64,000 nucleotides of DNA from an uncultured Nitrospira sp. (GTDB lineage Bacteria; Nitrospirota; Nitrospiria; Nitrospirales; Nitrospiraceae): contig CABVSR010000006.1 of assembly GCA_902500995.1 (NCBI GenBank), positions 1 through 64,000 on the forward strand, read 5' to 3'. Position numbers and translations under genes: made by a program. Numbering within the stretch: position 1 is the stretch's first letter; every line of letters begins with the position of its first letter. Below are positions 40,781 to 45,914 of the stretch, piece after piece. The notes below the pieces were generated by a model. It was not told the origin of the DNA. It saw only the letters and a list, made by a program, of their open reading frames with translations, and made no database searches.

Positions 40781-40808
40781 AGCTTTGCAATCCTGCTTCT
40801 TGCTGAAA

Positions 40809-40850
40809 GGTGAAGTCTTAAACTTGCTGGAAAAGTGGGAGGGATGCATC
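40809..40850 (+). repeat. Left terminal inverted repeat of the IS256-family element
   Basis: Begins GGTGAAGTC and includes CTTGCTGGAAAAG and GGGATGCA. It is imperfectly repeated in inverted form at 42168-42209. Confidence 0.85.
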
Positions 40851-40905
40851 CTTACCGGTTTGAACGTTTGGCCGCGTTCGAATCACATCCAACAAGGAGC
40901 ATCCC

Positions 40906-42207
40906 ATGGCAAGAGTACCGAGCAGCGTCGGCACACGCAAGAGGCTGAAAGAGATGTTGGCAGGCGACCCGGGCGAGATCGACACCAGTACGTTTGTGCG
41001 GCAAGCCGTCCGCCTGATGATCGAAGAAGCGTTAGAGACCGAAGTCAGTGAGCGCTTGAGCCGAGGCTATTATGAACGGGCATCCGTCGCGGAGGACGCC
41101 GGTACGGCCCGCGGGTATCGCAACGGGGTGCGCGTCGGCCGGCTGAAAACCGCCAAAGGCGTCATTGAGTATGGCGTCCCGCAAGTGCGCGGCATCGAGG
41201 GCTGGCAGTCAGAGATTCGCGCCGCATTGGGCGGCAAGAGCGAAGAACTGGAACGGCTCGCCGTGGAGATGTATGCCCGCGGCCTCTCCATGCGCGACAT
41301 TGAGGCGGCGTTCACAGGGGCCGATGGTCGCTGCCTACTCAGTCGCTCCGCCGCCAGCCGCGTCTGTGAGGCTTTGTGGGCAGACTATCAGGAGTTTGCC
41401 CGCCGCGATCTCTCCGGCATCGAGGTCGCCTATCTGTTCATCGACGGCGTCGCCGAGCGACTCCATCTCGGGCAGCCCCGCGAGGCAGTGCTCGCGGCGT
41501 GGGCGATTACGATGACCGGCACCAAAGTGCTCCTGGGACTGCAACCGGGGACCAAGGAAGACACGGCGTGCTGCAGCGACTTCTTGCGAGACCTCAAAGC
41601 CCGCGGCCTCGCGGATCCCGTGCTCGTCGTCACGGATGGCGCGCCTGGGCTGATTCGGGCCGTGGAGGAATGTCTGCCCCGCGCCCTACGGCAGCGCTGT
41701 CTGGCGCACAAGTTGAGGAATCTTGAAACGAAGGTACCCGCCGAACGGTGGCGGGAGGTGAGGGCCATGGCGCTGGCCGCCTATCACGCATCGAGCCCGA
41801 AGACCGCCGAGTGGGCCGCCGAAGAATTTCGCCTCACGTACGCCAACGAGCTGCCCAGCGGCGTGAAATGTTTCGATGATGATTTTGCCGCGTGCATCAC
41901 CTATTTGCGCCTGCCCGTGGCGCACCGACGGGCAACCCGCACGACCAATTTACTCGAGCGACTGTTTCTGGAGGAACGCCGCCGCAGCAATACCATCCCG
42001 CACGCGTTTGGCGAACGCGCCGTCTTAAAATTGATGTATGCGGCGCTTCAGCGAGCTAGCTGCACCTGGCAACGGGTGGCGATCACGGACTTCGAGCGGA
42101 AACAATTGCTCACACTCCGTGAAGAATTGGACAGCCAGTTTCAGGAGAAACATCGAGTGACTCAACCTGCATCCCGCTCACCAATTTCCAGCAAGCGGGG
42201 GACTTGA
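40906..42207 (+). CDS. IS256-family (mutator-type) transposase
   Basis: A 433-residue DDE transposase. Residues matching the mutator signature include FIDGVAERLH (first Asp region), VVTDGAPGLIRAVEECLP (second Asp) and TTNLLERLFLEERRRS (Glu in the third block), along with the CLAHKLRNLETKVP region. The gene lies wholly within the element, with its stop (42205-42207) inside the right inverted repeat. No frameshift or stop is present. ATG at 40906 follows AAGGAGC. Confidence 0.93.
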   Translation: MARVPSSVGTRKRLKEMLAGDPGEIDTSTFVRQAVRLMIEEALETEVSERLSRGYYERASVAEDAGTARGYRNGVRVGRLKTAKGVIEYGVPQVRGIEGWQSEIRAALGGKSEELERLAVEMYARGLSMRDIEAAFTGADGRCLLSRSAASRVCEALWADYQEFARRDLSGIEVAYLFIDGVAERLHLGQPREAVLAAWAITMTGTKVLLGLQPGTKEDTACCSDFLRDLKARGLADPVLVVTDGAPGLIRAVEECLPRALRQRCLAHKLRNLETKVPAERWREVRAMALAAYHASSPKTAEWAAEEFRLTYANELPSGVKCFDDDFAACITYLRLPVAHRRATRTTNLLERLFLEERRRSNTIPHAFGERAVLKLMYAALQRASCTWQRVAITDFERKQLLTLREELDSQFQEKHRVTQPASRSPISSKRGT

Positions 42208-42209
42208 CC
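42168..42209 (+). repeat. Right terminal inverted repeat of the IS256-family element
   Basis: Contains TGCATCCCGCTCACC and TTTCCAGCAAG and ends GACTTGACC. It overlaps the 3' end of the transposase gene. Confidence 0.85.
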
Positions 42210-42347
42210 TGCTGAAACATGGGGAACGAATCCTATTTTTAGCGGGCGTCGTCAATATTCCGAAGAACCTTATTAACCCATGGTTCGCGGACGGTAAGCA
42301 TGACCTACTACCGGACCGCGATAAGTCCGTCTCCATTCCAGCGAGGT

Positions 42348-42430: not shown

Positions 42431-42500
42431 CTCGCACCCTCTTCCCCCTCTGAAAGGATTCCCCTCCTCGTTCCATACCCTCCCATGAAGGGAGGCATTC

Positions 42501-44741
42501 ATGGAGCATCACCACGCAGGTTCTGAAGCGGACCCGCCGGCATATCGGCAGGATCCGCGCCTCTATCAAATCGCGAGCCTTGGCACCCTCCTCGTGTACG
42601 GTCTGTGCTGGCTGTACTTCGACCTGTCGATCGGGCAGGCCGCCGTGACAATCGGAACCGCATTGCTGACCCAATATGCCGGAACGAGGCTCTTCAACCT
42701 TCCGTTCTTCGATCCCAAGAGCGCCCTCATCTCCTCCTTGTCGCTGTGCCTTCTGCTGCGGACCAATGATCTATCAATCGCCGCGCTGGCAGCCTTCATT
42801 GCCATTGCCAGCAAGTTTCTCTTTCGATGGAGAAACAGGCATCTGTTTAACCCGACCAACCTGGCGCTGGCTGTGGTGCTCGCCGGCGGCCTCGGCTGGA
42901 TCTCGCCGGGGCAATGGGGGCAGGCCGTCTGGTTCGCGTTTCTCATCGCCTGCCTCGGAGGGCTGGTGGTCACTCGCGCCGCGCGGGCCGACGTCACCCT
43001 GGCGTTCCTCGGCTGTTATGTAGGGCTCCTGTTTGCACGGGCAGCTGGGCTGGGCGATCCGCTCGCGATTCCTGTCCACCAGATTGAAAGCGGCGCGCTG
43101 CTCATCTTTGCCTTCTTCATGATCTCGGATCCGAAGACGACGCCTGATTCACGAGCCGGACGTATCCTCTATGCGTTCCTCGTCTCCCTGGCTGCGCTGT
43201 ATGTGCAGTTTGGGCTGTTCCGCCCGAACGGGCCGCTCTGGGGACTCGTGGCCTGCGCGCCGCTCGTGCCCTTGCTCAACAACCTCTTTCCCGGTCCACG
43301 CTATCACTGGCCCTGTCCAATCGATCGTTCCGCTCAGCCGGATTCCGGACCGCCCCGCGATCTGATCCCGACTCCATCATTAACCAAGGAGGTGTCTATG
43401 CGACGTACTATCGTTCCTGCATTGCTCTTGATCCTGGGCCTGCTCGCCTGGGGGAGTGACGCATCAGCCTTCTGCGGCTTCTATGTCGGGAAGGCCGACA
43501 CCAAGCTCTTCAACAAAGCCTCCGAGGTGGCCATTGCGCGTCACGACAATAAGACCGTGATCACGATGGCCAATGACTTCAAGGGCGATGTGAAGGAGTT
43601 CGCGCTGGTGGTGCCGGTACCGACCGTCCTGGAAAAGGACCAGATTCGCGTCGGAGACCCGGCGCTGCTCAAACATCTGGCCGACTACTCGGCGCCTCGC
43701 CTGGTCGAATATTTCGACCAGAATCCCTGCCTGCGCTATGAACTGCTCGAACGCCGCAGCATGGATGCCATGAAGAGCATGGCGCCGGCGGCGGCTGCCA
43801 AAGATCGCGACAAGGCGCTGGGTGTGACCGTCGAGGCGCAGTATACGGTCGGCGAATATGACATTCTGATTCTCTCGGCTCGGGAAAGCAGCGGCTTGGA
43901 GGTTTGGCTGAGCGAGAACGGGTACCGCATTCCGCCGGGAGCGTCAGCAGTCCTGCAGAGTTATCTCAAACAGGGCATGAAATTCTTCGTGGCCAAGGTC
44001 AACCTGGGCGAGCAGGCCAAGCTGGGGTTGACGCACCTGCGCCCGCTGCAGATTGCCTTCGAATCGCCCAAGTTCATGCTGCCCATCCGGCTCGGCACGG
44101 TCAATGCCGACGGCCCGCAGGAATTGTTCATCTACTTCCTCACGAAGCAAGGGCGCGTCGAAAGCACGAACTACCGGACGGTGCGATTGCCGGACGCGCA
44201 AGAGCTTCCGCTGTTCGTGAAGGACAAGTTCGGCGACTTTTACCGCGATCTGTTCAGCCGGCAGGTGAAGCAGGAACAGGAACGCGGTGTCTTTCTGGAA
44301 TATGCCTGGGATATGAATTGGTGTGATCCTTGCGCGGCAGATCCCCTCTCGCCTGAAGAGCTGCGCAGTCTCGGCGTCTTCTGGCAGGAGAGTCCCGGCC
44401 GGGTAGGCAAGGGTATGCCCATCGCGCAAAACGTCTTCCTGACCAGGCTGCACGTTCGTTACGATGCCGCGCATTTTCCTGAAGACTTGATGTTTCAGGA
44501 GACAGCGGATCGCGGGAACTTCCAAGCGCGCTACGTTCTGCGTCATCCATGGACCGGGACGGACAACTGCCCGGCTGCCACGATGTATCATCAACAATTG
44601 CGCGAGCGGTACGAGCGGGAAGCGCAGACGCTGGCCTCGCTGACCGGTTGGAACATCGGCGAAATCCGCACAACCATGAACCTGGCATCACTGCCGGCCG
44701 GCGGAGAGAAGAAGTGGTATCAACGCTTGTGGGCTGAATAG
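42501..44741 (+). CDS. RnfD-like membrane domain fused in frame to a DUF2330 secreted protein
   Basis: An unbroken 746-residue frame. The first 270 residues are an RnfD/NqrB-type membrane domain (about 8 helices, with NRHLFNPTNLALAVVL and FFMISDPKTTPDSRAG). From residue 300 a complete signal peptide begins (MRRTIVPALLLILGLLAWG), leading into a DUF2330 domain (FCGFYVGKADTKLFNKASEVA). An AAGGAGG stands seven bases before the ATG at 43398, giving the second protein its own start. Either the ORF is fused after loss of a stop codon, or translation reinitiates. Start ATG 42501 follows GGGAGG. Confidence 0.75.
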   Translation: MEHHHAGSEADPPAYRQDPRLYQIASLGTLLVYGLCWLYFDLSIGQAAVTIGTALLTQYAGTRLFNLPFFDPKSALISSLSLCLLLRTNDLSIAALAAFIAIASKFLFRWRNRHLFNPTNLALAVVLAGGLGWISPGQWGQAVWFAFLIACLGGLVVTRAARADVTLAFLGCYVGLLFARAAGLGDPLAIPVHQIESGALLIFAFFMISDPKTTPDSRAGRILYAFLVSLAALYVQFGLFRPNGPLWGLVACAPLVPLLNNLFPGPRYHWPCPIDRSAQPDSGPPRDLIPTPSLTKEVSMRRTIVPALLLILGLLAWGSDASAFCGFYVGKADTKLFNKASEVAIARHDNKTVITMANDFKGDVKEFALVVPVPTVLEKDQIRVGDPALLKHLADYSAPRLVEYFDQNPCLRYELLERRSMDAMKSMAPAAAAKDRDKALGVTVEAQYTVGEYDILILSARESSGLEVWLSENGYRIPPGASAVLQSYLKQGMKFFVAKVNLGEQAKLGLTHLRPLQIAFESPKFMLPIRLGTVNADGPQELFIYFLTKQGRVESTNYRTVRLPDAQELPLFVKDKFGDFYRDLFSRQVKQEQERGVFLEYAWDMNWCDPCAADPLSPEELRSLGVFWQESPGRVGKGMPIAQNVFLTRLHVRYDAAHFPEDLMFQETADRGNFQARYVLRHPWTGTDNCPAATMYHQQLRERYEREAQTLASLTGWNIGEIRTTMNLASLPAGGEKKWYQRLWAE
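43398..44741 (+). CDS. Internal start: DUF2330 secreted protein
   Basis: A nested gene call within the 42501-44741 frame. Initiation at ATG 43398 gives a 447-residue precursor with signal peptide (cleavage near SDASAFCG). The mature protein is the DUF2330 family, unknown in function, with a CDPC motif near residues 310-315 of this product. AAGGAGGTGTCTATG is a stronger initiation signal than most starts in this window. Independent expression is therefore likely. Confidence 0.7.
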   Translation: MRRTIVPALLLILGLLAWGSDASAFCGFYVGKADTKLFNKASEVAIARHDNKTVITMANDFKGDVKEFALVVPVPTVLEKDQIRVGDPALLKHLADYSAPRLVEYFDQNPCLRYELLERRSMDAMKSMAPAAAAKDRDKALGVTVEAQYTVGEYDILILSARESSGLEVWLSENGYRIPPGASAVLQSYLKQGMKFFVAKVNLGEQAKLGLTHLRPLQIAFESPKFMLPIRLGTVNADGPQELFIYFLTKQGRVESTNYRTVRLPDAQELPLFVKDKFGDFYRDLFSRQVKQEQERGVFLEYAWDMNWCDPCAADPLSPEELRSLGVFWQESPGRVGKGMPIAQNVFLTRLHVRYDAAHFPEDLMFQETADRGNFQARYVLRHPWTGTDNCPAATMYHQQLRERYEREAQTLASLTGWNIGEIRTTMNLASLPAGGEKKWYQRLWAE

Positions 44742-44823: not shown

Positions 44824-45264
44824 TTATTTCGTGGCGCAATCACCCATCCGTTTGCCATCGACCTTCATCGTCACCGACAGCGCCTTGTCGCCTTTGGGAG
44901 TCGCTTTGCGGACGACGGAAAAGCCCGTGTTGGATACGGTGCCTTCCACGCGGGTGATCGCGTAGACGCCTTCGATCTCGTAACTGACCGTCCCCCCGTG
45001 CATCGACACATTCATGACTTTGTTCGCCGGATTGGGTTTGAATCCGTTTAACGCGTAATAGTTAAAGACCGCATCGGGATTGGCAAGATGTTCTTCCTTC
45101 ACACATCGAGTATGAGTGTCCGGCTTGCCCGCCTCACCATTGCTGCTTTCGGTCACGGCCGTCACCTGATACTCACCCGGCTTGAGAGGAACCGACTCCG
45201 CCCGCACCGGCAGCGCCCCACAGAGGACGCTCGCGATTACACACAGTCCTGCGCCGATCTTCAT
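44824..45264 (-). CDS. Secreted DUF3617-family protein
   Basis: A 146-residue precursor with signal peptide (cleavage near PVRAES) and a DUF3617 domain: KPGEYQVTAVTE at the N-terminus, TRCVKEEHL, and DGKRMGDCATK at the C-terminus. The two cysteines, in TRC and GDC, are typical of the family and may form a disulfide. Function unknown; such proteins are usually periplasmic. The gene ends facing the DUF2330 gene. Confidence 0.82.
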   Translation of the reverse strand: MKIGAGLCVIASVLCGALPVRAESVPLKPGEYQVTAVTESSNGEAGKPDTHTRCVKEEHLANPDAVFNYYALNGFKPNPANKVMNVSMHGGTVSYEIEGVYAITRVEGTVSNTGFSVVRKATPKGDKALSVTMKVDGKRMGDCATK

Positions 45265-45518: not shown

Positions 45519-45914
45519 ATGGCGTGGAATCCTCATTCGATCTTGGCCGGAGCGGGCGGACTGTCCCTGATGCTATTGCTTGCGGGCTGTTCCTTCAAAG
45601 CCACATTCAAAGAGACCACGGACACCACGTCCAACATTACCGGCACCACATCCGGACGCATCTGGTGGAATGAAGACGGCCTGTTGAAAGCCGAACATAA
45701 GCTGGCCGCCTTCACCGCCTACACGGCCCAGAATCTGGAAGCCGATGCGGCGCGGGGACAAGGCGACTATCTCGATTCGCTGGGGACGCTTGCTCATCTG
45801 CCGGATGCGCAGGCGTTGAATGCGACTTCGCAGGACGTCTTCAGCCGTTGGATCCGCGGCGGGCAGGGCTCGACCGCCGATCTGGTACAGGCATTATTGT
45901 CCGCACAGCGCTGA
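45519..45914 (+). CDS. Lipoprotein, DUF3015-like
   Basis: A 131-residue precursor with lipobox LLAGCS (Cys about residue 24) and a Thr/Ser-rich segment (TTDTTSNITGTTSG) followed by a helical domain ending in STADLVQALLSAQ. The RIWWNEDGLLKAEHKLAAFTA and ARGQGDYLDSLGTL segments suggest the DUF3015 family, a tentative match. ATG follows AAGGAG. A 9-bp palindrome stands 41 bases upstream. Confidence 0.75.
   Translation: MAWNPHSILAGAGGLSLMLLLAGCSFKATFKETTDTTSNITGTTSGRIWWNEDGLLKAEHKLAAFTAYTAQNLEADAARGQGDYLDSLGTLAHLPDAQALNATSQDVFSRWIRGGQGSTADLVQALLSAQR

Follow-up and report, generated by a model that had tools for sequence, protein, structure and literature searches.

Does a reading frame that joins a membrane domain to an exported domain encode one protein or two, and how does such a frame come about? 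We address this question for a locus in the window, i.e. the whole analysed stretch of 64,000 nucleotides from an uncultured Nitrospira sp. A preliminary description had noted that a membrane domain here reads into a secreted protein with its own AAGGAGG, ATG and signal peptide, and this is confirmed by the reading frame, the Pfam matches of the two halves and the sequence itself (Table 1). Searched alone, the upstream half matches NQR2_RnfD_RnfE (PF03116, residues 135-262, E 1.7e-12) and the downstream half matches DUF2330 (PF10092, E 2.1e-84). The internal AAGGAGG is separated from the internal ATG by 5 bases in the window, and the N-terminus that follows consists of MRR, a hydrophobic stretch and ASA/FCG, with a predicted cut after position 43469 (judged by eye).

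Table 1. Features of the fused locus (positions in the window).
Feature	Positions	Strand	Basis
Fused ORF, 746 aa plus TAG stop	42501..44741	+	Open for 746 codons; same fusion in 27 of 68 gene pairs of the family
Shine-Dalgarno-like AAGGGAGG of the upstream start	42488..42495	+	Sequence reading
Membrane domain, RnfD/NqrB fold, residues 1-270, about ten predicted helices	42501..43310	+	PF03116, model, PDB 8rbq_D
Linker, without stops in the fused frame, unconstrained at residue level	43311..43385	+	dN/dS, stop counts
Internal Shine-Dalgarno AAGGAGG	43386..43392	+	Perfect match (7 of 7) in 25 of 27 fused genomes
Internal ATG, at the start position of most separate DUF2330 genes	43398..43400	+	ATG in 27 of 27 fused genomes
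Homologous site of the ATGA stop-start overlap, ATGC in the window	43398..43401	+	Comparison with separate relatives
Predicted signal peptide, predicted signal peptidase I site ASA/FCG	43398..43469	+	Judged by eye
Mature DUF2330 protein (predicted), 423 aa	43470..44738	+	PF10092, alignment, model
Out-of-frame TGA, +1 frame	43363..43365	+	Sequence reading
Out-of-frame TAA, +1 frame	43381..43383	+	Sequence reading

Homologous pairs were compared within the family, where 82 of 175 genomes have a match. In 68 of these both halves are found on one stretch, which makes the pair readable; the 14 matching genomes in which they are not were excluded. A comparison for a stop codon between the two domains had been suggested beforehand, and it divides the family: of the 68 readable pairs, 27 form an in-frame fusion, the other 41 being separate. 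Most fusions belong to the genus of the window (18 of its 22 readable pairs; 27 of its 29 genomes have a match), and the others to genera g15 (five), g14 (two), g4 (one) and g5 (one). Another sample, which overlaps with this one, consists of the best 80 of 177 relatives' loci from a contig search and contains 20 fused and 52 separate pairs as well as 8 loci without the membrane half on the piece.

The assembly of the window is a draft of 56 contigs, and a sequencing or assembly error by which a base was missed in the linker could join two genes on paper. Nonetheless, seven close relatives of the window genome (L002-L008) have the same frame as the window, and the fusion is also present in complete chromosomes of other species (FP929003.1 of N. 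defluvii and NZ_CP011801.1 of N. moscoviensis). These independent assemblies speak against an artefact for the clade, and we regard its probability as negligible. The fused reading frame with its retained internal start is genuine; it is neither a product of chance nor unique to the window genome. As a separate observation, in two genomes of the genus (G009 and G015, with L026 and L027) the matches to DUF2330 were only fragments with stops and two more genomes have no match, so that the pair looks dispensable.

In the separate state the two genes are tightly arranged. The stop codon of the first gene overlaps a start codon in the frame of DUF2330 in 40 of the 41 separate family pairs: 39 overlaps span 4 bases (37 ATGA, 1 GTGA, 1 TTGA) and one reads TGATG. 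The exception is L077, where the pair is uncoupled by a frame change. A perfect AAGGAGG is present in 35 of the 41 separate pairs and one with a single base off in 4, while the spacing is 5 bases in 36 (as scored; the start of L043 and L075 was mis-scored in this tally, and by eye AAGGAGG precedes the coupled ATG in both). According to PMC6728339 and PMC10666635, pairs with an ATGA overlap are coupled by termination-reinitiation, and the separate family pairs share this overlap. PMC10666635 also states that overlapping genes are translated in a coupled manner, with an enrichment for subunits of heteromeric complexes, and that a 38-nt gap cut reinitiation by 80-90% in two E. coli pairs. Compared with the coupled pairs described in those texts, the present overlap differs in that it alternates in evolution with an in-frame fusion that retains the second start. 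At the same site the fused genomes read ATGA (17 of 27), ATGC (9 of 27) or ATGG (1 of 27).

Programmed -1 frameshifting in the separate genomes was considered and set aside; no slippery heptamer was seen at the overlap (by eye). In three genomes of genus g14 (L043, L075 and L079) an insertion without stops in the DUF2330 frame separates the coupled ATG from the signal peptide. A repeat-like stretch there is common to L043 and L075, and their DUF2330 may start with a long extra N-terminus.

The linker has a length of 3n+2 in 40 of the 41 separate pairs, and therefore one indel suffices to put the two frames in register (that all fused linkers are multiples of three in length follows from the definition of fused and is no evidence). 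Such events can be read directly from close comparisons. L035 has one extra G between the Shine-Dalgarno sequence and the ATG in comparison to L078, L067 and L074, and L032 has one extra A just before AAGGAGG in comparison to L058, L076, L073 and L057. The preliminary description had pointed to the TAA and TGA one frame away as signs that the upstream gene had lost its stop by a small change. Both triplets are present in the +1 frame, but neither is the lost stop: the homologous stop is the TGA of ATGA, for which the window has ATGC. The TAA occurs in only 3 of the 27 fused genomes (L001, L011, L015), and in the other 13 members of the 16-genome clade introduced below its place is taken by CAA in 12 and by TCA in 1. 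What survives of the proposal is that a small change can produce the fusion, given that the pair is separate in many relatives and that single-base insertions mark L035 and L032; the stops were wrongly named.

To place these states in a phylogeny we used a tree from which the junction was left out (quick method, LG+G4, with a single long terminal branch, L076, and no outgroup root). It requires 10 changes of state, 8 of which are forced by well-supported (starred) branches. Shuffled labels require far more (21.4 on average, with 0 of 500 shuffles as low as the real tree), so the fused or separate state is inherited as well as switched. Because the tree is unrooted, gain and loss are indistinguishable from the change count. 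The window is placed inside an all-fused group of 16 genomes (SH-aLRT 92). Its fusion is an old state common to this clade, not a recent mutation of the window genome, and we infer that its lineage went from separate to fused, most likely by an indel.

At residue level the linker of the fused genomes is free: its dN/dS is 1.16 in L001-L007 and 0.87 in a six-genome sister group (1.80, 0.46 and 0.80 in three single genome pairs, with wide intervals). In the same two larger groups dN/dS is 0.14 and 0.16 in the membrane domain and only 0.07 and 0.10 in DUF2330. The frame, on the other hand, stays open. None of the 27 fused linkers contains a stop in the frame of the fusion, compared with 8 and 7 linkers in the two remaining frames. 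Shuffled linkers had a stop in 12.1 of 27 on average, and in none of 2000 draws did the number fall below 3. For the 16-genome clade, a neutral simulation gave probabilities of 0.014, 0.082 and 0.007 for the absence of stops under three rate settings. Since the genomes are related and C-rich linkers are poor in stops, this test of openness is only moderately strong (P up to 0.08). Separate linkers are equally open: of 35, one has a stop in the frame of the upstream gene, compared with 7 and 8 in the other frames (this tally, like the RNA comparison below, excludes L043, L054, L060, L062, L075 and L079 for a large gap or alternative start), and consequently openness favours coupling over the fused product itself. 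Judging from these counts, selection probably preserves an open linker frame, but neither its residues nor its length, whether the pair is fused or separate. This fits selection for coupling, at a moderate level of evidence.

These data bear on the view that nearly all DUF2330 is made by internal initiation at 43398 and that the loss of the stop merely left a tolerated tail on the upstream protein. Such a neutral by-product would go well with the free linker residues, with a state that flips often on the tree, and with a Shine-Dalgarno sequence and ATG retained as strongly as in separate genes. It does not easily explain why 0 of 27 fused linkers contain a stop (simulated P from 0.007 to 0.08 in the 16-genome clade), and we give it only a small chance.

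Retention of the internal start in the fused family genomes (Table 1) extends to its details: the 5-base spacing is kept in 26 of 27, and the two genomes without a perfect AAGGAGG still match 6 of its 7 bases. Lysine is encoded by AAG in 445 of 723 cases in the fused genes and glutamate by GAG in 420 of 879, shares which are only partial, so the protein sequence alone would not fix AAGGAG. The RNA does not mark the internal start as more accessible, as the mean predicted opening cost of the start region shows no difference between fused and separate genomes (7.84 kcal/mol in 27 fused against 8.11 kcal/mol in 35 separate). A fusion devoid of an internal start, which had been named in advance as an observation that would count against the idea, is seen neither among the 27 fusions of the family nor among 11 outside it.

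These 11 genomes with an in-frame fusion are spread widely: one from another family of the same class (L200), one from Myxococcota (L120), an unclassified bacterium (L124), a Thiothrix (L142) and, within Acidobacteriota, 6 of the 18 readable pairs of a phylum search as well as L115. All 11 have an in-frame ATG with an SD-like match of 4-6 bases upstream, at a spacing of up to 12 (L200 by eye). In Thiothrix (L142/L210) the junction of the fusion contains ambiguous bases; the 13 other full readable pairs of its order are separate, as is a 14th that a contig end truncates. Not all pairs are tightly coupled, since Marinicaulis and other distant pairs have real gaps between the genes and in L148, L152, L157, L217 and L218 the upstream gene overlaps into DUF2330 out of frame. 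In the set from outside the family, 5 of 47 rows are without a membrane half, L263 and L265-L268 duplicate counted loci and L262 is an additional copy within one genome; the judgement of fused or separate does not extend to loci matched in the membrane half only (L229-L239, L257-L261). One separate pair, L219 (G783), has a DUF2330 frame that is open for 520 codons upstream; its open frame is listed at 1243 aa.

The signal peptide is retained along with the start. The motif [AV]xA precedes FCG in 27 of 27 fused family members, and dN/dS of the signal peptide is 0.34 and 0.24 in the two larger groups (three single pairs gave 0.48, 0.30 and 0.71, with wide intervals). The fused-protein model (mean pLDDT 79.3, with low confidence for the linker and signal peptide) has ten helices before the signal peptide, two of fewer than 8 residues being omitted from the count. 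As this number is even, the two ends of the membrane domain would lie on one side and the signal peptide would be correctly oriented; the N-terminal side of RnfD we take to be the cytoplasm. An unusual topology had been expected of the fusion, which on this model, with about ten predicted helices ahead of the signal peptide, is not obviously the case.

The right orientation predicted from these helices would equally serve an internal signal peptide that remains uncut and, as an extra helix, anchors DUF2330 to its membrane partner. Recurrence of the fusion in several lineages is likewise what one expects if both proteins act together. A tether of this kind is nonetheless unlikely in our view: the cleavage motif before FCG is found in every fused member of the family, the signal peptide is constrained in both larger groups, and the internal Shine-Dalgarno sequence and ATG, superfluous for a pure fusion, are retained.

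Weighing these results, we lean towards a two-protein unit that is kept in step, either via the overlap or via a fusion with cleavage, and in which the second start is retained. The unit would consist of an orphan membrane protein of the RnfD/NqrB fold and an exported DUF2330 protein, the second made in step with the first. In separate relatives the coupling would proceed via the stop-start overlap by termination-reinitiation. In the lineage of the window, where the frames came into register (most likely after an indel), the ribosome would read straight on and produce a precursor of about ten membrane helices and the linker, after which the old signal peptide would insert in its normal orientation. 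Signal peptidase I would most likely cut at ASA/FCG, so that the mature DUF2330 would be the same as in relatives without the fusion and the membrane protein would be left with a C-terminal tail. With the Shine-Dalgarno sequence and ATG retained, the DUF2330 precursor could in addition be synthesized on its own. We infer from the conserved motif and the recurrent fusion that the cell makes and cuts the fused precursor and uses both start sites.

A broader form of this reading is that termination-reinitiation and an in-frame polyprotein are equivalent couplings of a membrane protein to its exported partner, between which bacteria switch repeatedly. The switch would then be nearly cost-free, because signal peptidase restores separate mature proteins, and the internal start would add a second dose. 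We offer this tentatively and would rate its chances somewhat below even.

A similar architecture is that of fbcH of Bradyrhizobium, which encodes a cytochrome b-c1 precursor that signal peptidase cleaves within the protein, at an internal signal sequence. The likeness consists in one frame that leads from a polytopic membrane domain via a signal peptide (here recognized by eye) to an exported domain. The differences are that other protein families are involved, that cleavage is only predicted here, that an internal Shine-Dalgarno sequence and ATG are retained and that unfused relatives are common. Literature searches returned no paper on the fbcH precedent, and joint-term searches on internal signal peptides, on Nitrospira fusion with signal peptidase and on N. 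moscoviensis proteomics gave nothing relevant, which does not imply absence from print. The case is an evolutionary example rather than a new mechanism. Its matched fused and separate forms among close relatives make up a natural series in which one can ask whether fusion and translational coupling can replace each other, and whether gene fusions can be rendered harmless by signal peptidase. For annotation the consequence is more practical: when the fused ORF is recorded as a single protein, the second start and a probably separate mature protein are hidden.

With regard to the nature of the first partner, the best fold match of the membrane domain is PDB 8rbq_D, RnfD of Azotobacter (Z 25.2, rmsd 4.2, 258 aligned). 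RnfD chains overall score Z 23-25, and PF03116 is above its cut-off. The domain shares its fold and Pfam family with RnfD/NqrB of the Rnf and Nqr complexes, but unlike curated rnfD it scores only 36.5 bits with TIGR01946 (NCBIfam), against a cut-off of 207.05. It is the only PF03116 match found in the genome. In the comparison of neighbour clusters as such, rather than by a family search for RnfA, B, C, E and G, no Rnf-like cluster is prominent. The covalent FMN motif [ST]GA[ST] does not occur within the membrane domain; 1 of 42 membrane rows has it, in the linker. The membrane domain is not a standard RnfD, but an orphan protein of the RnfD/NqrB fold. The idea of flavin transfer was dropped as the motif is missing, despite an ApbE gene about 123 kb away on the same contig. 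Among the fold matches of the membrane domain, RnfD and NqrB are followed by ammonium channels and urea transporters (Z 10-13). Given that the flavin motif is missing, the domain could be a channel rather than a redox subunit.

The model of the mature DUF2330 protein (mean pLDDT 79.2) resembles baculovirus P35 (1i3s_B, Z 10.4, rmsd 4.8, 222 aligned, 7% identity), and its best Foldseek match is 1i3p (E 4.6e-4). This predicted likeness is middling, somewhat above the other matches, and gives no function. Pfam states no function for DUF2330, and a literature search found no paper naming it.

Among the best 80 of 177 loci, no cluster other than the pair itself is widespread both within Nitrospira and beyond it (76 of 80 loci for the pair). 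A response-regulator cluster is found at 12 of these loci outside Nitrospira, though the non-Nitrospira list used in this comparison included L151, a Nitrospira locus. Downstream of the fused ORF in the window lie DUF3617 (44824-45264, minus strand) and DUF3015 (45519-45914, plus strand); the cluster with the DUF3617-type small protein is present at 9 of the best 80 of 177 loci, none of them outside Nitrospira. Upstream, an insertion sequence occupies 40809-42209, with a Mutator-family transposase (PF00872), inverted repeats and an 8-bp target duplication (TGCTGAAA at 40801-40808 and 42210-42217). It ends 291 bases upstream of the fused ORF and may affect its promoter.
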